Shown: positions 1 through 58,108 of the stretch, piece after piece
How positions within the stretch are numbered: position 1 is the stretch's first letter
How the letters are laid out: each line of letters opens with the position of its first letter
DNA from: Symbiotaphrina buchneri
Taxonomy: Eukaryota > Ascomycota > Symbiotaphrinales > Symbiotaphrinaceae
DNA: 64,000 bases
NCBI GenBank assembly: GCA_001599915.1
Contig: BCIG01000006.1
Span: 496,001-560,000 of the forward strand
Direction of reading: 5' to 3'
Position numbers and translations under genes: made by a program
The notes under the pieces: generated by a model
The model's input: only the letters and a program-made list of their open reading frames with translations
Database searches by the model: none
Told to the model about the DNA's origin: nothing

Positions 1-8
1 GGGAATAC

Positions 9-3000
9 ATGGAGGAAGCGGACAAGGTCTTGCCACTTTATGGTGATTCTGGCTCTGAGAATGAATATGATTTAGATACCTGGCAGGCTATTGAGGAAGA
101 GCAGGGTACCGTCAGCCGGCCTTCGGGCAGAACAAGGGGTGAACAGCTCAACCAAGACGAAGTCGAAAGAGTCGTAGCCGAGGCAATCGAGGAGCTAGTC
201 AAGGAGTGGCGACAGAAGAGACTACCCCTCAAGGAACGAAAGGCCCGAAGCATATGGACCAAGTCGAGAATTCAGATGAACAAGGACGCCTCTGTGCAGA
301 AAGCGCAGGGGCGTATCGTTTGGTTGGATCACCGACTGGAAAAACTGTGTAAAGAAATCGGCGAGGGAGTCTGGAGCAGCGCTGTCAAGCTAAAGAAGCA
401 GTGCAGGATATTGGAGCAGACAATATTTGAACGGGAGGAACTGTTGTGGAATATATCCGTTCTAGAAGCGAAGAAGCAGCCGCCGAAGCCATCTTTTCCG
501 AGCAGGAAGAAAAAGCCTGTGAAAGCTCCACCACTTCCCGAGACAGACGACGAAACCGCTGAGGTGCTAGAGTCTACTGATACTTCCAGCTATACTGACG
601 AGGACATGGATGACTTCATTGTCCCTGACGAAGAGGATGATCGCGGCGTTGAGGCAGACGAAGAAGACGCTGCCTTGCCTGTCATGGATGACGAACTCGA
701 TGATATTAGGGATGACGGTGATGTCGACTTCGAAACTGGAGATCCAGAGCTTCTTGGTATGTTTCCCTACCGTACTTCAAGTCTGTCAACTGATCTAAAT
801 AGCGCCAGTCACTCAAGAGGTCCCTCCCTCACAGCAGACGAATGCTAGTTTGACAGCCGCTCCCGGTCTGGGATTACTGGCTGACCGACATGTATCGCCT
901 TCTGAGACGGATGTGACTGCCCTTGGACACAAGGGGGGTATAAAACAAGAGCCTAGCCGAACGAATAGCGGAATTATTGACCTCACATTATCTTCCGATT
1001 TGGATGAGCCGCAAGAGCCGCAGGGAGTCAAGACTCCACCTGTCAACTCGCCAAAGTACAACCCCTTTGCTGAAGGTTCTTTGCAAACACAGGCTCCGCG
1101 TGAAATAATCGAGGTGGACACTGAGTATTCATCCAACAACAGTTGCGATTACGAAGAAGAACCATTGCCTCCGTACGATGACGTTCGAGCTATAAAGCGG
1201 GTCGACTGGGACGTATTTTCGGAAAGAAGAGATCGGAAGCGCCTCTTGATCAAGATTCTTTCAAAAACAAGCCCCGGAGTCCGGTCAGGGTTGATCACCC
1301 GTTTACAGTTGGTGGCTTTCAAAGACATTCAAAACGAGGTTCGGGCCGGCATGAAGGCTTTCATGGCCAATACTCAAACCATACCGGGTGTGGAGCCGAA
1401 AATTCAGAAAGTGATACTCTCTCTGACCTCCCTGTGGTTGTGGTGGGTGGAATGCAGATACCGAAGGGACGGGATTCCAAAGCACGTTGTCCAAGACGGC
1501 CTTGGGGAGCTTGGGACTTTCAGACAATTCTATACTGTTCTACGAGAGCAGCTTAGACGGTACGAGATCAAGGACGGGTCAAGCCCTGAAGCACGAGCGA
1601 CACGGACGAAGGATCTGCAAAAGCGAAAGCGTAACCAGTAAGTCTGCCAGCTGTTAGGCGAACTTCATCTGATGCATATATCTAGGAGCGACACAGAATC
1701 TGACTCTTCCGCGGATTCTGAGCCGGTTCATTCCACCCCTCATAAGAAGAGGAAACGTGAAGGTAATGATGCGCTTAGCCCCATCATTCTGATTGTTGTT
1801 CACGTGTCCATAGTGAAACAAGATGAGAGAGCCGCAGATCTGCGGGCTGTGGCTTCCCAAAGGCTAAGACTGCAGGAAAAGCGCAGACGTATTCTGGAGA
1901 AGAGGCTTCCGACGGGCGAAAGTGTCGATCAGGACAAGAGTCGCATTGTTGTCAACCTCATCAAAGCTGATGACGAAGACTTCATATATATCAATCCCCG
2001 CATTGGAAGCAGAATCAAAGCCCATCAGGTGGGTAATTCCTTGTTTGCTATAGTTTACAGAGATGGCTGACCATACTGGAGATCGAGGGAGTGCGTTTTA
2101 TGTGGAGAGAAGTGGTAGTTGGCGGCGGGGGTTGCACCTTAGATAAGTTCTTTTCTATCTTCCCATGGTCTTCTAGGCTAACATATTTCCACCCATGGCG
2201 ATGGGCTTAGGGAAAACCATGCAAGCGTAAGGCTCTTCCTTCCGTGTCCACAGGCATGTACTGATCTTGTCAGCATCACCCTTCTGGCTACGATAGCCGA
2301 ATCTGCCAGTAGTCCGCATGAGAACGTCAGCAAACAGATCCCCGAGGACTTGCGACATTTGCGAGCACTTGTCTTGTGCCCTCCCACCCTCATAGATAAC
2401 TGGTGCGATGAAATTATCATGTGGGCGGATCCTCAGCCCGTGCCTGGAAACGTTGGTCAGCTCATCAGGATCGATGCCGCGCTCGATGCCAAGGAACGTC
2501 TGCTGGAGATAGCAGCCTGGCATGACCAAGGCGGAATACTGGTGATGTCGTACGACCTGTTCCGTTCATACATCCACAACAAAGGTAGCAGTGGCCGCGC
2601 CGCACCTTTGAGTGAGGATGATCATGCCCAGGTTTTTGACCAACTCATTCGCGGTCCTAATATCGTCGTTTCGGACGAATCGCATCGTTTGAAGAATGTG
2701 AAGAGCGCGATTTCTGCTGCTGCGGTTCAAATCCAGACTAGTCGTCGAATCGCTTTGACAGGTAGCCCTCTGGCTAATAATCTCGAGGAGTACTACGCTC
2801 TGGTTTCTTGGACAAGTCCTAACTATCTGGGTGATGCCGTCCAATTTCGATCGAAGTACGCTGAACCTATTCAGGAAGGGTTATGGCAAGATAGTACTGC
2901 TAGCGAACGACGCAAATGCTTAAAGATGTTGCATGTCCTGAAAAAGGACTTGGAGCCCAAGGTTCTTCGGGCAGGCGTTGAGGTCCTCAAAGAGAGTCTT

Positions 3001-5290
3001 CCGGGAAAGACTGAATTTGTGTGAGTTCGTTAGGTCATACTTTGATGGCGTACCTAACAATCACAGCATCAAAGTGCCTCTTGATGAAGTTCAGGAAGGC
3101 GCATATAAGCTATTTGTGGATGGAATGCTCCCAGGTATAAGAGATGCCACTGTTGGCAATACTACGCTTTGGTCCTGGCTCTCCTTTCTACAACTACTCT
3201 GCAACCATCCTATCTGTTTCAAGGAGAAGCTTCTCAGGAGAGACGAAGAACGCCGAGGGCTCACAAAGAGGACACACCCTAAAAAGTTGATACTCGAGCC
3301 GGCTGACGGGGATGAGACTACAGAGCCTGCTCCCGGTGACGAAGATGTCGTCAGCATGGGCATCCCACAAGAACTGATTACCACATTGCTGGACTATTTC
3401 ACAACTCTCAATTTGGATTTGACTCTCACACATTCTTACAAAGCCCAGGTCTTCTTGCAAATACTCGATCTGTCAAAAAATGCTGGTGATAAAGTCCTAG
3501 TATTCTCTCACAGCATACCAACATTGGATTTCTTGGAAAGCCTGATCAAGGACAGAAGCTATAAGCGGCTTGATGGGAAGACGAAGATGTCGGAGCGCCA
3601 GAAGGCAACAAAGGAATTCAACAAGGGGGATATAGATATATATCTTATCAGTACCAGAGCAGGTAAAAAGTGCCTTATTCCGACCTTCTCTCACGAGACA
3701 CTAAATAGTTTGCAGGCGGTCTTGGGCTCAATCTCTTCGGGGCCAACAGGTGTATACTGTTTGATAGAAACTTCAACCCCACTTGGGAGGAGCAGGCCGT
3801 CGGAAGGGCATATCGAATCGGTCAGGTCAAGCCAGTCTATGTCTACCATTTCATAACAGGCGGGACATTCGAAGAAAAAGTCCACAATAAAGCGGTCTGG
3901 AAACTGCAATTGGCGAGCAGGGTGGTTGACAAGAAGAATCCGGAACGTTACTCAACCAAAACAGCGAAAGACTATCTATTCCACCCGACTGAAGTGGAAA
4001 GAAAGGACCTGTCTGAATTCCTTGGAAAAGATCCCAAAGTGTTGGATGCCATCCTTAGGAATCAAGCATTGTTAGTAATATGTTATTTTCGGACGTGGAC
4101 TATCTCTGACTGAGTGCAGGACGCGATCTATATGCTCGATTGAACTCACGGAAACTTTCCAAAAGGATGACGATGAGTCTCTGCTCACTGCGGCGGAACT
4201 CGCGGAAACGGATGAAATCATCAGGGAGGAACACCTCAAGCGGACTAATCCAGCAGCATACGGAAGATTGCAAGCACAGAAGCAGACACTAAGACCTGTA
4301 CCAGAACAGGCTATACGACCTCTACAGCTGCCTCCTCAGAATATCCCTCATGGTCTTCCCATGCCTTTTGTGTCTGACTATCCTCAGGCTTTGTCTTATC
4401 CGCCGCCGGCAAGCGCAGTATCGAACGATTCTACATATCAATCTTTACAGCCTATTCCTGGGGCCAGCACGAGGGTCCGTGAGTTGTCAGTCTTCTCGCA
4501 GCCGAACGATGTTCTCAGACACCTAGAGAGGGTATGTAATTCCCTGCTAATACGGGATGTAGCTGACTAGAATATCTCAGTCCCCTCAAAACTTGTCCCC
4601 GTCATGGTCGAACAATATCAATCCTCTGATTAGTCCACATGCACGGCCGGCATCTAGTGCATCTGAGGGCCGTGGTTCTCGGGCTGCAGGCGACAAAGCT
4701 CCATCTGACGACCGGCGTGGTCGTCCAAGATCGTCACCAGGTCGCGCCCCTGTGCAGACCGCTTCAGGCGCGAGCGCGAGCGCGACAGCTGAAGCTAGAC
4801 ATGGAGAAAGGCGGGCTCCAAGCTTTGTCGACCGAGCCAAGGGAAGCGGTATGCAGCCGATAGCGAGTGCAATAACAGTGACCAGGGATGAGAGGAGGTC
4901 CTCGTCGCCTCCAGCAGACTCGCCATCACCGCCTAGACAGAGCGAAGTCGGGCTTCGGAAGAGTGGAGGTGACAGCTCGTTGGCGCCACCAGCTGGGAGT
5001 CGGACCCCTGAGCAACGTAACAAAGCCCCAACAGAGGCACAAAATGTAAAGCTCACCAAATTATCTCCTTTCAACTTCACGAAATCCCTCTTCAATAGGT
5101 TCAGATCAAGCAGAGATGGAGACTAACGTCAGCCGCAGTCAAGTCGAATTCTCAGTACGCAAGCGCTGATGGACCAGATGAAAAGGGCATTGGAGCGGCC
5201 TCCACCGCTCGGCTTTTCCGGCGGGTCAAGGCATCAGTCGCGTCATGTCTGAACAACCCTGTTCACGTCGACGCGTATCATCTCCAATAA
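9..5290 (+). CDS. SNF2-family ATPase, Rad54/ARIP4-like
   Basis: Nuclear DNA-dependent ATPase of the Snf2 superfamily, probably a chromatin or recombination remodeler. My model has 12 exons: 9-756, 803-1637, 1686-1762, 1814-2028, 2082-2142, 2193-2226, 2274-3020, 3067-3662, 3716-4070, 4120-4531, 4581-5045, 5099-5290, giving 1578 aa in one consistent frame. Visible motifs are KAHQIEGVRFMWRE, the Walker A MGLGKTMQ, a DESH box (VVSDESHRLKN), ALTGSPLANNLEEYYALV, and in the C-terminal lobe [11 protein letters not shown] and GRAYRIGQVKPVYVYHF. The N-terminus is acidic and low complexity, the C-terminus Ser/Pro/Arg-rich. The frame is open to the window edge, so the true start may lie upstream. Intron 2143-2192 appears to be AT-AC, and intron 2029-2081 would end in GAG. 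Intron 1763-1813 is 51 bp with no stop and could be retained. The last intron (5046-5098) is chosen because it opens a further 63 codons; without it the protein ends at 5126. Confidence 0.85.
2143..2192 (+). other. Probable AT-AC (U2-type) intron
   Basis: The coding frame is closed here unless 50 bp are removed. The only junction I find that keeps phase and restores the conserved Snf2 motif starts with ATAAGTT and ends with CCAC, with a GGCTAAC branch-like element just before the 3' end. The spliced product reads GCTLAMAMGLGKTMQ, aligning residue for residue with the family pattern GCLLAHTMGLGKTMQ. The GT-AG alternatives I tried (donors at 2131 and 2147, acceptor ending at 2176) give the wrong phase. 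Confidence 0.7.
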
Positions 5291-44781: not shown

Positions 44782-47700
44782 TTACACGTCGCCATCCGCA
44801 ATCGCCAATCGCTCCTTTGCCGTTTTGGCCCTCTTGGAAATCCCCTTTGCCTTGCCGCTCTTCTTCATCTTAGCCGGCAGTTCGGACGTAGAGACCGGCG
44901 TCGCCGCACCGGATGGTTTATTGCTTCCATCGTCAAAGTGACCTTCACCTGTAAAGAGGTCAGCGGCTGGACGTGGACCAGAAGCCCAGACGTCGCACTC
45001 ACCTTCATGATACATTTCGTCCAGCGACACGTCAGCCTGTCTCTTCTTGGTGGCCTTGCGTTTGCCGGAAGGCTGATTGGCCTCTTGGGCAGCGATTTCC
45101 GCTTCTTTCCTCTCCAATTCGGCTGCTTGGTCGTCGTCGGCCAACCACATAGCAATGTCCTTTGCTTTGTTTTCGCGAGACCGGGTATTGAAGTCGACCC
45201 CACCACCTGCTCCGCCGGATATGACCACGCGCTGAACTTCCTCTTTCTGTAAGGCACGCTTGCGGATGCGTTCCTCGATAGTCCCACGCGTGATCAGCCG
45301 GTACACGGTAACCTGCTTGGTCTGGCCAAGACGATGCGCACGATCCATGGCCTGACTGTCAATGGTTGGATTCCAGTCGGAATCATAAAAGATGACTGTA
45401 TCTGCAGATGTAAGGTTGATGCCCAGACCACCAGCGCGAGTGGAGAGAAGAAATATAAAGATATCCGGCCTTGTCTGGAAATCATGTACCGTATCTCGCC
45501 TGTCCTCCAGCTTGGTGGAACCGTCGAGTCTCAAGTACTTATAATTCCGGTACGTGAGATACTCCTCCATGAGGTCAATCATGCGGGTCATCTGGAAGTA
45601 GAGCAAGACACGATGACCACCTTCCTTAAGCTGTGCAAGCAGCTGATCGAGCTTCGCCAGCTTCCCAGAATCGGTCACGAACCGTCTCATCGATGGAACC
45701 TGGATGTTGGTATACCGAGCCTTTTCCGATATCGGCCTTGGGAGCAATTTGTTCGGCGGCAAGAAGGCCGGATCCACCTTTGCCTCCAGCAAATCCTGTT
45801 CTTCCTTTTCGGGAAGTCCATAGAGCGCATGGCGGACGGCGGGATTGAAGAAAAGGTTCTGTTTCTCAATGACACTGCTTTGGCTGAGGCAAACGACCTC
45901 AACAGGAGGGGCAGAGGCAGCCGGTCGAGCACATTGTTCGATGTTTCCGAGTCCAGAGTCGCTGAAGGCGGAGCGCGAAATATTCAACAGCTGCAATAAG
46001 CGGCCCTCTTGCGTAGCAGCAGCTACTTCTGAAATGTTATTGCGTTCAGCAACGTTGAGAAGGGCTCGCATTGGAGTCCAGCCTTGCGGATCTTCTTCAT
46101 CGTATACAACGTCAAGTCTAGCCAGCCGAGGGGACTTCTGCAGAAGACCAAGAGCACGCTGAAACATGTCGTTGAAGAATGCTGCTGAGGCATCACCTGC
46201 AGAGATATCCACGAATCGCAGCCAGGAGAAAGCAGTGCCTTGAACGGAGTCGTGTTGCACGTTTTCGGGTGTCCAGATATTCATCAACTGATCCAAGTAC
46301 TTCGTCTTGAAGCCGACCTTGTCATTATCAGGGCCAGGGAAATCGAGCCTGTTGTCAGTTGCGTAGATCAGACGCGGTAAAGGATACTCGATGAGATTGC
46401 GAGTGGAATAGCCCACGTTGACATTCAGCCCTTCCCGGAGGAAGGAAGCCGTCTCAGCGAAATAAGCCATAGACAAAGGTGACGTAGTCTCCGCTCTTTC
46501 AAATAAGTCTGGATGATTGCAGACCTTTCGAAATTGCATCACCAGGTTCATCAAGGTGGCCGTATCCTGTTCATCGCCAACTGCAGCTTTCTCGATCAAG
46601 TCCATGATGCTTATACGATTCCGGAGATTCGTATAATACGCACGCTGCCGGTAGGTAAGGTCACAGAATACATCTTCCTCGATCTTATCTCCCAGCTCCT
46701 TCTGCACGTGCTTTTTGATCCGACGTAACATGAACGGTTTCAAGATCATGTGAAGACGTCTGAGTTGATCTTCGTTGAGCTTTGTATTGCTCTGAGCATG
46801 GCTCTCAATGTCTTTGGAAAACCAGTCGCTGAATTCGTCATGGGAGTCGAACAAACTTGGCATGATGAAATGCAACAATGCCCACAGCTCCTGCATGTTG
46901 TTCTGAATTGGAGTCCCGGTCAGCAAAAGCCGATTTCGACAATGAAAGCCAAGTAGGCTCTTCCATCGAGAGCTCTGTGAGGATTTAATTGCTTGGGCTT
47001 CATCCAGAATCATGTATTGCCACCTGATCTTCTGAAAGTATTGCGCGTCCGCAACAACCAGCTGGTAAGAAGTAACCAGTACGTGAAAGGGTGACTCCTT
47101 GGTATATGTTATATGTTTACGATCCCAGAATTTGCGCAGAACCTTTCGATCTTTTGCAGTACCCCAGTAAGGGAGAACCTTCAGGTCAGGGACGAATCTG
47201 GTAATCTCCTGTTGCCAGTTATGAAGTGTCGAAGCTGGAGCAATAACCAAGAAAGGTCCCCAAATGTTATGGTTCTCAGCAAGATATGCCATAACGGAAA
47301 TAGACTGTACTGTTTTCCCTAGACCCATCTCGTCGGCTAAGATCCCATTGATACCTTGCTCGTACAAGTTTACCAGCCAGTTCAAGCCCTTCAATTGGTA
47401 CTCTTTCAACTGGGCGGTGAGCATCTTGGGCTGAGCGATATCCATATCCATCAGACTCGTTGGATTCTGGAAGTTCATCTCGCCTTCATCAAAGTCTGCT
47501 TGCTGGTTGAAAGCTCGCGCGCGATCTTGCGCTTCTTGAACGGCGTTCTGAGCATTGGCCATGGCGGCCTGTCGCAGTGCAGTCTCATCTTCGGCGTCGA
47601 AGTCAAGATCCTCGAAGTTCGTGACCTTCGCAGTCGGTTCAGCAACACTGTCAGGAAGGTCGATACTATGCGCTTCCGGCTTGCCGGCTGTGACTGTCTG

Positions 47701-50047
47701 CTTTGAGACAGCAACAGTGGCGTCGTCGGTTGACCTTTCGACTTCATCGGTCTTGATCTTCCGGCCGATGAAGTGGGAATATAGTTCCGTCTGAGATATC
47801 AAGAAGTTGAGTTTGCGCTTCTGCCGATTGGCTTCACGGTCCGCTTCGGCTTTCTTTGCGTTTTCTAGCTCTTGTCGTTCAGCCATGCGCCTGAGATCTC
47901 GCTCTTCCTTCTCGTTCCTCTTCCAGAAAGACATCATTTCACGCATGCTGCGCTTCGCGCGCGCCTGCACGTCTTTCATGCTCTTGTTGGTCCGAAGCTG
48001 CCATCTTCTCGCCTCCTTGGAAGCCAACTGAGCTGTTTTCCGGAGGTTGGATTGCTTCGTGCTGAGTGACGTCTCCTTGATACGATAGACTCTAGGTATA
48101 TCTTTTCGTGCCAGATCTCGCCAGATCTGGTCGTAGATCTGATTATATCCTTTCGAGACGTAGGGTGTGAACGGAGAAGGAGACGCTTCTTTCCGTTCTT
48201 TCGGTTCCTTTTTAAGGGTCTCTTTGCGACTTTCCTCCTTCGGCGCGATCGCTACAGGCTCCTTATTCTCCATAGCCGCATGCGCCGCCTCCGCGGCATC
48301 CTTCTCGGCCTGCTTCTGTTCCTTTGACTTGCGAGGGCGTGCGCCACCTCTGCCGGACTTCTTCTTCGACACCTCGGCCGCATTATCCAACCCAGTGGGG
48401 AAGAAGGACATTGTGCCTCCTTCCATGTTAGGAGGAAGTGGTGTTACCTCCCTGATCTCTTTCCCGGCGTTTCCACTTTGCAGCATATTTCTCGTTTGCA
48501 ACGCTTTCTGCTCCGCTTTCCTTGCTTCCTTCAGGTACCTCAACTTCTCCTCCTGGTCGGCAGCTTCTTCGGCTTTTTGCAAAGCCTCTTGTTTCTTCTC
48601 CAACTCGTTTTGTACCGTTTTCTCACGGCGTCGCTTGCGTTGCATATCTTTTTTCCGTTCCTTCTCGCTAAGCACCTCCTGTTGTTGAACGATAGCAAGC
48701 GCATCAGGCTCGTATTTCACACGGAAGCGGCGAGCGCCTGCCTTCGCATATTTCTTGAGTCGTTCGGCAAACGCATCAGCAGTTACAACTCTGCGTCTCT
48801 GCAGGGCAAATCAGTGAGGGGTACCACAGATAGGTCGCGGAATCCGCCACATACCTTCCTCTTGCTTGTTTCACTATCTTCGACTTCAATGGCCCGCTTC
48901 TGGCCTCTCTCCAGGAATCTCTTCTTGTCATCTTCAAACCCAGGACCATCGACATCGCTAAGCTCCATTGCGTCTATTTCAGCAAGGGCCTTAGCGAGCT
49001 CATTTTCCTTTTCGGTAACAGTTGGCTTGCTCCTGCTCGGGCTGCGTCGTCCGGTGCGGGCGGGATCTGAAGTACTGGTTGTTCGTGTGTGAGCCGATGG
49101 TTCCGAGGCCGGCGTCAGCGTGCGGTTGGAAGACCTCCTCAGATGTTGGCGCACGAATCCCTCCTCGGCTTTAGAAGACGGGTCACGGCTTGGTGACTTT
49201 GACGGTTTCCTTTGTCCAGATGATGGGTGACGATTTACTGAAGGGGCAGCTGGTTCTGTGGTAGAATCAGAGAGGATACTCGAGAAGGCCATCGGGTCGG
49301 AGGGGCGGGAGGGTTTCTTGAACCTGGGGTTAGCGATTGCTCTTTTAATAAGAAGTGTGACCTACAGGTTCGGATCTCTCTGATTCCGTAGGTGCAGCTG
49401 CCTTCTCCGCTGAATCCGCATAACTTATTCGGCCCAATACCGGAGACGACACGTCCGCACGAGAAGAAATCGGGGATGTTAGCTCTCCTGAAGGATTAGG
49501 ATGAGAATGTGGCAAGCTCTGGCTTGCAGATGGGTGGGCAAAATGACCTGCTGTTGGCGTGTGCAGGGGCCCCGCGGCGTATGATGCAGTTTCGGTGGAT
49601 GTCTCTCTGGTGAATCCCAAATTCCGGTGGCCCTGTCGAAGGTCAGATCGGCAACAACCACAATGCCACGCAGTAAAGCAACAATTAATGAACATGGTCA
49701 TCACGAACCTGTGACGGCGAGGACGTAGAATATGATTTCGGAGCCATAGACGTCCTTCTATCTGCCTGATCAGAAGTTGGATCATAGTACGTAGATGCTG
49801 ACCTGGCCTGGGCCGGGCCAGCTGAGCCATTCGCTGGCGATGGCCGCTTCGGCGGCACCAACGGAGGCAGGTCATAGAAAACGGGGGGCCTGCTGGCCAT
49901 AGTTACAGGTGCAGGTGTCGCTGGTTGGTACTTGTTCTGACCAGAAGCGGCAAACGTGCGGTAATCTGTTTTGGGCGAGTATGAGTTGTATCGCGAGTGA
50001 GGTGATTGAGGAGGATGGGGTGAATGCTGATGAGCTGATTCTTTCAT
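44782..50047 (-). CDS. ino80: Chromatin-remodelling ATPase INO80
   Basis: Catalytic subunit of the INO80 nucleosome-remodelling complex. Five exons: 50047-49709, 49632-49366, 49316-48855, 48798-45003, 44948-44782; total 1676 aa, close to other fungal INO80. The N-terminus is Pro/Ser-rich, followed by Lys/Glu coiled coils and the DBINO region ([38 protein letters not shown]). ATPase: [14 protein letters not shown], the INO80-type DEAQ box ([14 protein letters not shown]), [15 protein letters not shown]. After a long insert the second lobe has [51 protein letters not shown]. Intron 44949-45002 is 54 bp and open, so retention would only insert 18 residues. The acceptor at 49317 would be AAG; that junction is less certain. 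Confidence 0.96.
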
Positions 50048-53616: not shown

Positions 53617-56600
53617 TCAATCCTCGTCACTCTGAGCATCCCCATTGGCACCGTTCGCAAAAGAATCACGATTGAAAGTCAGTTTTAACTTCATTCCGCC
53701 GCTGGCCGATGCTGGTCGCGGTGTGCCTGCGCTTGAGACGGCTGCGGTAGATTGGCCATCGGCCACTGAAGAAGGCTCATCAAAATCAGCTAGTTCGGGA
53801 TGTGTTTCGGTTTCTTCCTTCAGTTTAGCCACGCAAGTAGCCTAGCACAAGTAAATAAAGAGGCACATCAATAATAGACACGGTCGGGCTCACCTCTATA
53901 AGGTTAGCATCCTGGAACAGGATGCTACCGTCCTCATTGTACGTCCTGGCATTCGTGCATAGCAAGCGAATGTCATCCCTGAATTCTTTCAAATTCTGGT
54001 ATTCCTCTTTGTTGATCTTTTTCCTGATAGAATCCATAGCAATAGGGCTACGAATGAATCTGTAGTAATCAGGGTACATGCTCTTCGGTGGAAGCTTGAG
54101 AAAAGGATCGATGACAGGCCGAGTCGATTCCTCCTCGTCCTCGCCATCGCCCGGAACTTCCACTTCGAGGTCTACTAGTGACTGATAGACATTGTTCAAG
54201 ATCTCTTGTAAGGTAGCCCGTTCCTCAGGACTAAGCGAGTCATGGCTCGCAGCTTTCGACTGCCGCCCGCGTTTGCGCTTAGCCGGCGGTGCTTCGTCAA
54301 TAGAAGCTTCTTCGGCCTTGCGCTTCTCCTTGTTGGGTTTGCGGCCTCGCTTCTTAGGCGCAGGGGTATCTGAATCCTCACGCTCTGGTTCGGGCGAATC
54401 CTCAGGTCCAGATGCTTGCCTCGCCCGCTTTTCTTTGTTGGCTTGGCGCCTGGCCATCTTGGCCTCTCTACGCGCGATAGCCTCTTCAATGGTGTCTTCA
54501 TCGTTATCGACAGCCTCGAGCCACTGTTCTTCGGTCAGACCATCATCGTATCGTACACGAGTCCTTTCTCTTGCTCCACGCCCGACGTTCTCTTCGATTT
54601 CCTCGACCACGGGGTTATCATCATTGAGATAGATGTCCGGCAGTTCAGAATCGCCCATAAGCCTGGGTAGCTTCTTGTTCGGGCCGTAGAGAGGATCGTT
54701 CGAACGTTCCGCGTCAAGTCGCTGGAACAACATCAGCTCATCATCAGTACGAGCCATGATGACGTTCAAATCGTCATCATCCATCTCCTCCTGCTCAAGA
54801 GTCTCCGTTGTATCGGCGCTCTCAAGTAGTGTCCTCAACAAAGCATCACGCTCTTCGTTGGTGGATTTGTTGTCGAACTTCCCTGCTTGAATAACCTTGC
54901 CATCCATATCCAGTTTGTACTGAGCCCGTTCGAGAATCTTTTCTTCTACCGAATTCGAGCTTATCAATCTCAAGATCCTCACCTCGTTCTTCTGCCCAAT
55001 ACGATGGGCACGGTCCTGAGCTTGCAGATCCTGATGCGGGTTCCAGTCAGAGTCAAAAATAATGACAGTATCTGCAGTCTGCAAGTTAAGACCGAGACCA
55101 CCGGCTCGAGTTGAGAGCAAAAAGCAAAAGTAGGGCGAGTCCGGGGCGTTGAACAGTTTGAGCAGCTCAGAGCGATCGTCAGATTTAGTAGAACCGTCCA
55201 GGCGCAGGTATTGCATGTCCTTCAGACGCAGGAAGTCCTCCATGATGTTCATAATTTGGGTCATTTGAAAAAACATCAACACTCTATGCCCTGATGCCTT
55301 GAACTTAGGTAAAACCCGGTCCAAAAGTTCAAACTTTCCTGCAGTGCGCCACAAAAGGTCATTGCTTAGTCTGCCAGGGTTCATCTGTTCCTCAACCTCG
55401 TCAAAAACAAAAGGATGATTGCACAGCTTTCGTAGCTGCATAAGCATGTTACTGAGACCGCGAACACCAGTTTTTGAGCCTTTGCCATCGCTGACGAACA
55501 GCTTATTATGAGACACCATCTGCTTGTAGAGCCTGGCTTGCAATGCAGAGAATTTGCATTTGATGACACGCTCTTGCTTCTCTGGCAGATCCTTCTCGAC
55601 GTCCTTCTTCAGGCGGCGAAGGAGGAAAGGCCTGAGAACCTTATGCAACCGTCGGATGACCAAAAGCTGTTCTTCCTCGGTCAATTCCATCTTGTCTTGA
55701 CCGCCAGTGTTTGCGAAGGGCGTGTTGAACCATTCATCAAAGGATTTGACAGACTTGAAGATCGTGGGAAGGACGAAATTGAGGAGCGCCCACAGTTCCG
55801 GAAGATTGTTTTGCAGAGGGGTTCCCGTAAGGATCAGCCGGTATTGAGTTGTGTAATATTGCGTCAAGGTACTGCTTAGCTTCGATTGTGCGTTTTTCAT
55901 ACGATGACCCTCGTCTACGATCATGTGCTTCCACTTGATCTTGCTCAAGACCGGCCGATCCTTGATGATGTACTCGTAGGTCGTCAATAGAACCTGGAAG
56001 TTCCCGTACCGGATTTGCTGCTGTTGTTGCTTGCGAGCATTGGGAGGCCCCTTGTACACCACTTTCACGACAGAAGGTGCCCACTTCTCGAATTCAAGAT
56101 TCCAGTTGGTCAGAGTACTATGGAACATGCGTCAGACGTATCCCCAATGGATCTTTGGAATGATCTTACCTCAAAGGCACAATGACAAGGAAAGGTCCGT
56201 TCTGCTTCTTCTTCTCAATCAAGTAGGTTATCAGACTTATGGTCTGAATAGTCTTTCCCAGCCCCATTTCGTCGGCCAAGATACCGTTGAGATGGTTATT
56301 ATACAAAGAGACCATCCATTGCAAACCCTTGATTTGGTATTCTTTAAGTGTCCCGCCGACTAGTATCGAAGGCTGTTCCCTGATCTCTTCCTTGATACGG
56401 TGTGCAACTTCGTAATAGTCGACTTTTCGGCCATCCTCATCATCCTCCTCTATGTCTTCCTCCTCCTCGAGGTCTTCGTAATCCTTCTCACCATAGTGCT
56501 CGGCAGCAGTCCGCTGTTGTTGTTTGACGGAAGATGCAAGCTGACTCAAGAATGCGTCCGTCTGTTTGAGGAGATGAGTGATCCTAGTATCCTTCGCTTG

Positions 56601-58108
56601 ATCAAGCAGTTTCAAGTAAGCCTCTTCATCGTTGGATTTCAGCGCTTGGAGACGCTGCTTCGCAGTTCTCTCGACGCGTTTCTGCTCTTCCTTCTCGATT
56701 TGCTGGTGTTGCTGAAGCATCATGCGGCCAAGTTTCTGGACTCTGGCTCGCTGATTGCTGCCCGCTGTGGCGACATCCTTCCCGTGGTTCAAGATAGACT
56801 GAAGATAATCGAAGTGCTTCTTCTTTTCCCTTGTCTCTCGGGCGTCGCGTTGTTGCTTCTCTAGCTTTTCTGTGATTCTGGCCTCCCTGAGAGATTGCTT
56901 CTTCATGCGCCTATAAAGTGAGCGGTTTGCAGTCATAGCCAAATGATCATAGGAGATCATGTCTTGGCTGATTCTCTCCCGCAGGGCACGCTGCTTTGGC
57001 AAGAGGCAGAGCATCTTATACTCGATGAGCGCTTTTAATTTGAGGGAATGATCTGTATCATCCGGGGTATCGGTCTTCGTGGTGTCCCATGAAGTAATAT
57101 TAGCTGGTAGTCTTTCAAGCTCCGACTTCCGTGATTGAATGCGGTTGAAGATAATCCGTTCTCGCTCTTCGCGCACTCGGTCGACGTCAACTCCTGAAGG
57201 CATAATACTTGGTATCAACACCCGTTTCTCCCTTGATCCGTGTTCGGGATAGCTGATGTATTTGGCAAGTTTGGAATATGGCGAAATAAACGTCTCGTAT
57301 CTGTCGCGGCGAACACTAGTATCGGATTTCTGGCCGTTTGTAGTCTTCTCATGATCTTGACTTGGGGCGTCTAATGCGTGTGATACGGCCGCAACAACTT
57401 GGGAAGCAGAGGGAGGCCGCTTGCTTTGTTGTGATGCGAACAGCTGTTGCTGTACGTTGGCCGGTATTGCTAAGTTCTTTGAAAGTAACTTGAAAGCCAG
57501 AATCTGATTCCGAAGTGTGTTCAGTTGCTCCGGTGTGAAATTGTTTGGGGGAGGGGCGCCAGATTTTTGCGAAGTGGCACCTCCCTGGCTGCTAGTCCCT
57601 GATGCCGTCTGCGGAGATGCGTTTTGCACACCGATGTTTCGAGCGGTAGAGGGAGAAGCCGATAATTGGGGAGGCTGTTGCGCAACATCTAGATATGTCC
57701 GTCAGTGAGACGACAGCAGCATGTGCCACAAATGACTTACCGCTGGCTCCATCTAATTGAGCAATGCCGTTAGGTTGTTGTTGCTGTCGGAGGACTTGCT
57801 GCTGCTGTTGTTGCGCAAGAGCTTTCTGCTTCGCAAAATGGGCTTGCTGCTGGACAGCAGTAAGAAGGTTGTGTGCTTTTATGAACTCCGGATCATCCTC
57901 CCTCACTCCCTGCTGTCTCATCTGCTGGTACTTCTTTTGAGGTGTTAGAAAATCATGATTGATGAAGGCGAGTGGGCATGGGATAATATCCACTCAAAGG
58001 TCCATTACTCACCGCCCATACTTCTTTGACCTGTTGATTGTTGAAATTTGGCGGCAGAGACGCTCCACTTCCCTGTGGTAAAGCCGGAGCTGTTTGCATC
58101 GTGGTCAT
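53617..58108 (-). CDS. snf21: SWI/SNF-RSC chromatin-remodelling ATPase (Snf21/Sth1 type)
   Basis: Five exons: 58108-58013, 57933-57741, 57688-56170, 56117-53894, 53841-53617; total 1418 aa. Order of parts: N-terminal Gln-rich region, a QLQ-like segment ([22 protein letters not shown]), an HSA domain (about residues 290-400, [23 protein letters not shown]), ATPase with [14 protein letters not shown] and DEGH box ([15 protein letters not shown]), [33 protein letters not shown], a SnAC-like acidic region, basic AT-hook-like GRKPNKEK and KRKRGRQSK, and a C-terminal bromodomain ([44 protein letters not shown]). The last intron splits off the final 75 residues. Confidence 0.96.

Follow-up and report, generated by a model that had tools for sequence, protein, structure and literature searches.

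An ATRX-like SNF2 gene of Symbiotaphrina buchneri with a probable U2-type AT-AC intron in its Walker A region

Introduction

Does a chromatin-remodeller gene of the ascomycete Symbiotaphrina buchneri carry an intron with AT-AC ends immediately ahead of the coding sequence for its ATP-binding loop, and if so, which spliceosome would remove it? The question arose in a window of 64,000 nucleotides (C6:496001-560000), the whole stretch of DNA analysed here, from an assembly of 23.38 Mb in 82 contigs. The short introns, a U6 snRNA gene and the genes seen would by themselves suggest a filamentous fungus, probably an ascomycete. A first-pass annotation had proposed that a 50-nt segment of this window is a U2-type AT-AC intron. 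We weighed this reading against other splice junctions at the same site, against look-alike loci elsewhere in the genome and against the possibility that there is no intron. All positions are window positions unless a contig is named.

Results

The host gene runs into the window from upstream, starting ~1.8 kb before it if the first MMAPIQ is the start. It reads as a single open frame after removal of 11 segments, namely ten GT-AG introns of 46–53 nt and the 50-nt segment 2143-2192 (Table 1). A Pfam scan of 1293 residues returned DUF7607, SNF2-rel_dom and Helicase_C, and the top solved-structure match of the ATPase part was ATRX (9l06; E = 1.5e-32). The domain content places the predicted product in the SNF2 family, and it is probably ATRX-like, a subfamily assignment made by best match only. 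A scan of viral contigs returned 25 relatives, all distant (20–31% identity), which were set aside. The 64 kb contains three SNF2-family remodellers in all: the ATRX-like gene and two genes on the minus strand, at 44785-48810 and 53828-57701, one of which encodes a DBINO domain and the other QLQ, HSA, SnAC and bromodomain domains. From this domain make-up, we take the DBINO gene to be INO80-like and the other to be SNF2/STH1-like.

Table 1. Features of the candidate intron and its host gene, in window coordinates
Feature	Position	Strand	Description and basis
Proposed AT-AC intron	2143-2192	+	50 nt, phase 1; sequence, frame, shuffles and Pfam comparison of splice products
Donor ATAAGT	2143-2148	+	GTAAGT with A at position 1; G at +5; read from sequence
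U2-type branch site GGCTAAC	2176-2182	+	Read from sequence
Acceptor CCAC	2189-2192	+	Read from sequence
Upstream exon	2082-2142	+	IEGVRFMWREVVVGGGGCTL; sequence and frame
Downstream exon	2193-2226	+	34 nt, with MAMGLGKTMQ (Walker A); sequence and frame
Next intron, GT-AG	2227-2273	+	47 nt; gene reading frame
ATRX-like SNF2 gene, window part	1-5290	+	Starts upstream of window
GT-AG introns of gene	757-802, 1638-1685, 1763-1813, 2029-2081, 2227-2273	+	
Further GT-AG introns of gene	3021-3066, 3663-3715, 4071-4119, 4532-4580, 5046-5098	+	

The segment reads ATAAGTTCTTTTCTATCTTCCCATGGTCTTCTAGGCTAACATATTTCCAC, with the signals in the order ATAAGTT...GGCTAAC...CCAC; the branch A of GGCTAAC would lie at 2181, 11 nt before the last intron base. 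The upstream exon is in frame 0 (mod 3) and stays open through 2143-2192 as far as a TAG at 2208-2210, and MGLGKT is in frame 2, so that the length removed must be 2 mod 3. Taking out 2143-2192 leaves the ATRX-like SNF2 frame intact, reading GCTLAMAMGLGKTMQ. The coordinates, length and letters given for the segment in the first-pass annotation proved exact on re-reading, and its claim of an uninterrupted Snf2 motif after removal is borne out by the predicted spliced product, which aligns to ATRX (9l06) gap-free from GC to MGLGKT. The Walker A exon is thus flanked by two short segments, the proposed AT-AC intron on one side and a GT-AG intron on the other.

Readthrough without an intron, in which the frame would stop at the TAG before MGLGKT is reached, was dropped. 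The same lack of an intron could mean that the gene is broken or that an insertion shifted its frame, which would fit the openness of 2143-2192 in the upstream frame. However, the gene is otherwise intact in its reading frame and in its SNF2 and Helicase_C domains, and a donor, a branch site and an acceptor stand in the correct order within the additional 50 nt; we regard this explanation as very improbable. Dinucleotide shuffling of the segment's 50 nt (100,000 rounds, 19 slides per round) gave the combination ATAAGT+CTRAC+AC once and the looser AT[AG][ATG]G+CTRAC+AC 6 times. AT..AC ends without other signals occurred 7,151 times and are therefore weak evidence alone, but the complete set of donor, branch site and acceptor is not likely to arise by chance.

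Enumeration around the site gave 868 frame-open junctions, among them four GT-AG, three GC-AG and two AT-AC pairs. The GT-AG pairs run from 2112, 2115 or 2118 to 2176 and from 2131 to 2210, the GC-AG pairs from 2122, 2125 or 2134 to 2210, and the second AT-AC pair is a 26-nt one at 2157-2182. All of the GT-AG and GC-AG junctions lose or swap conserved-motif residues around Walker A. The earlier statement that the AT-AC junction is the only phase-correct one therefore goes too far, since these seven GT-AG and GC-AG junctions also leave the frame open. The broader claim of a U2-type AT-AC intron gained support from the donor, the branch site, the last C and the gap-free SNF2 motif, with the tested canonical junctions faring worse.

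Four products were scored with Pfam. The AT-AC product had the top SNF2-rel_dom score (124.2 bits), followed by a 50-nt removal slid by +4, which has GT-AT ends (121.8 bits), a 35-nt GA-AG intron (115.1 bits; dropped) and a 59-nt GT-AG intron at 2118-2176 (112.1 bits), the one frame-open GT-AG or GC-AG junction included. For the ResIII family, with a cut-off of 22.5, the AT-AC product alone scored above it (23.4), and the other three reached 18.0–18.8. A canonical GT-AG intron with an altered protein could use any of the four junctions listed above, all of which keep the frame, but 2118-2176, the best placed and the only one of the four in the Pfam scoring, lies 12.1 bits under the AT-AC product. 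In addition, the junctions ending at 2176 lose GGGGCTL and gain ANIFPP, with no CTRAC in the segment ahead of 2176, and the junction 2131-2210 takes MGL out of the loop itself. Such an intron seems to us highly unlikely.

The closest competitor is the +4 slide, in which 2147-2196 would be a GT-AG intron with AT in place of AG at its acceptor, owing either to a mistake in the assembly or to a genuine mutation. Its product has the same length as the AT-AC product and scores only 2.4 bits less, a small margin, and the identical shift is the better reading at two control loci described below. Against it, the slide requires a GTTCTT donor, which none of the gene's ten GT-AG introns uses, as well as an AT acceptor, and it makes ATAAGT and AC coincidental. 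Among 29 slides of a 50-nt removal, L-A before the loop comes from the AT-AC slide only. At the Ala position, 18 readable SNF2 paralogue motifs of the same genome, a count that leaves out one motif cut by an exon end (L083), have Ala (13), Gly (3), Cys (1) or Val (1); none has Asp, the residue that the +4 slide places there. The next residue is a blemish on the AT-AC product, which has Met where 17 of the 18 motifs have Asp and ATRX has His. In 306,725 bases of overlapping loci, a weak test, GTTCTT showed no excess over its reversed control (9 versus 23); GTAAGT did (33 versus 16), and GTAAGG, a donor used in the ATRX-like gene, did not either (9 versus 10). Taken with its lower score, we consider the +4 slide improbable.

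Four pattern scans of the S. buchneri genome gave no excess of AT-AC-like patterns over reversed controls: 11 versus 41 for the strict pattern, 50 versus 119 for the relaxed one, 31 versus 78 for ATRTGT and 49 versus 180 for ATAAGV. All 11 strict matches were checked. The relaxed scan was covered in full (50 of 50 rows, with 52 distinct matches in the loci, read by eye and five of them more closely), and for 20 of the 80 rows of the ATRTGT and ATAAGV scans, picked by eye for looking intron-like, the flanks were checked. Candidates were judged by eye except for two that were scored with Pfam. Among the matches checked in these own-genome scans, at loci other than L058 and L060, none made a convincing second AT-AC intron; with no second case and no pattern excess, there is no independent sign that this species splices AT-AC introns. 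L060 (C29:279674-279729, minus strand) has an AT-AC-like pattern with open frames at both sides. Two further candidates, L049 and L036, were read by eye as GT-AG introns and a third, L041, as uninterrupted coding sequence.

The two Pfam-scored candidates were the strict matches with a correct frame, in a heat shock factor (HSF) gene (L012) and an Sds3-like gene (L019). As AT-AC introns both were rejected, as a GT-AG junction at +4 at both ends is better in each (87.0 versus 84.9 bits in HSF, 72.9 versus 66.9 bits in the Sds3-like gene). In these GT-AG introns ATAA precedes the start and AC lies 4 nt before the end, which permits an AT-AC misreading of the same length. In-frame AT-AC readings may therefore mislead, but the segment 2143-2192 differs from these controls, since here the +4 slide has the lower Pfam score and would have to use GTTCTT as its donor and AT as its acceptor. 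A literature search for AT-AC introns in heat shock factor genes of fungi listed no paper on this subject, judged by title and abstract.

Which spliceosome would act on the segment? AT-AC ends and a branch site near the 3' end are also features of U12-type introns, which are removed by the minor spliceosome. However, the U12 consensus given in the accessible text of PMC3033335 is ATATCC for the donor and CCTTAAC for the branch site, and the segment has ATAAGT and GGCTAAC. The segment has AT and AC at its ends and its removal restores the frame; its donor is U2-like, ATAAG with a +5 G, and so is its branch site, which lies close to the 3' end. A search of the genome found U6 RNA (best 47 of 1458 candidates scored) and none of the four minor snRNAs, namely U6atac (best 46 of 948), U12 (best 42 of 452), U11 (best 39 of 1007) and U4atac (best 48 of 419), an absence that is weak evidence because only the best candidates were scored. 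According to the accessible part of PMC10639083, neither Ascomycota nor Basidiomycota yielded convincing minor introns. Together, the U2-class donor and branch site, the failure to find minor snRNAs among the best candidates and this taxonomic pattern make the major spliceosome the likely route of removal, and a U12-type intron is extremely unlikely.

Discussion

Our results support a model in which 2143-2192 is, with good probability, a spliceosomal AT-AC intron that the ordinary (U2) spliceosome would excise; we infer both the splicing of the segment and the machinery used. In this model, ATAAGT would look to U1 and U6 like a GTAAGT donor mismatched at position 1, and U2 would pair with CTAAC. 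In the second step, A1 and the last C would replace the usual contact between the first G and the last G. Removal would rebuild the Walker A region of the ATRX-like SNF2 remodeller, and if the intron were retained, the frame would stop at 2208-2210, ahead of the ATP-binding loop. That stop raises the idea that a poorly splicing AT-AC intron is kept as a switch, with splicing efficiency setting the amount of active remodeller. We think this unlikely; if it were true, the gene would illustrate how an AT-AC intron can be acquired and maintained in a fungus that lacks a minor spliceosome.

If the segment is spliced as read, the catalytic core of this chromatin remodeller would be interrupted by a clean U2-type AT-AC intron, a natural substrate for tests of the first-base/last-base rule. 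Gene prediction that allows only GT-AG and GC-AG junctions would probably break the ATRX-like gene. Current knowledge of splicing is unchanged by this intron, which is probably a U2-type AT-AC intron, rare and of a kind already known.

AT-AC introns have been reported in other fungi at low frequency. In the accessible text of the respective sources, they make up 0.019% of annotated fungal introns (PMC7072748), account for 69 of the 14,305 RNA-seq junctions of Trichoderma longibrachiatum (PMC4324775) and are listed among the rare intron types of Fusarium graminearum (PMC3577648). RNA-seq of human fungal pathogens gave 0.09–5.19% (PMC6176087, likewise seen in part), a range whose upper values may partly be mapping noise. 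The accessible portions of PMC7072748, PMC4324775 and PMC3577648 contain no mention of an ATRX-like SNF2 gene. These reported introns rest on annotation or RNA reads, whereas 2143-2192 rests on sequence and protein homology.

Among the closest counterparts are the U2-type AT-AC introns of sodium channel genes, such as intron 21 of SCN4A, which are removed by the major spliceosome and for which the +5 G is important, according to the accessible text of PMC2831892. The S. buchneri segment shares their AT-AC ends and their G at +5. It differs in being 50 nt long and in lying in a fungus whose genome search turned up no minor snRNA. Since no minor snRNA was found, an origin by conversion from a U12-type intron, as proposed for the sodium channel introns, would be less natural here. 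With ordinary short fungal GT-AG introns, the segment shares a length of ~50 nt and a CTRAC-like branch site, and it departs from them in its first base, A rather than G, and in its last, C rather than G.
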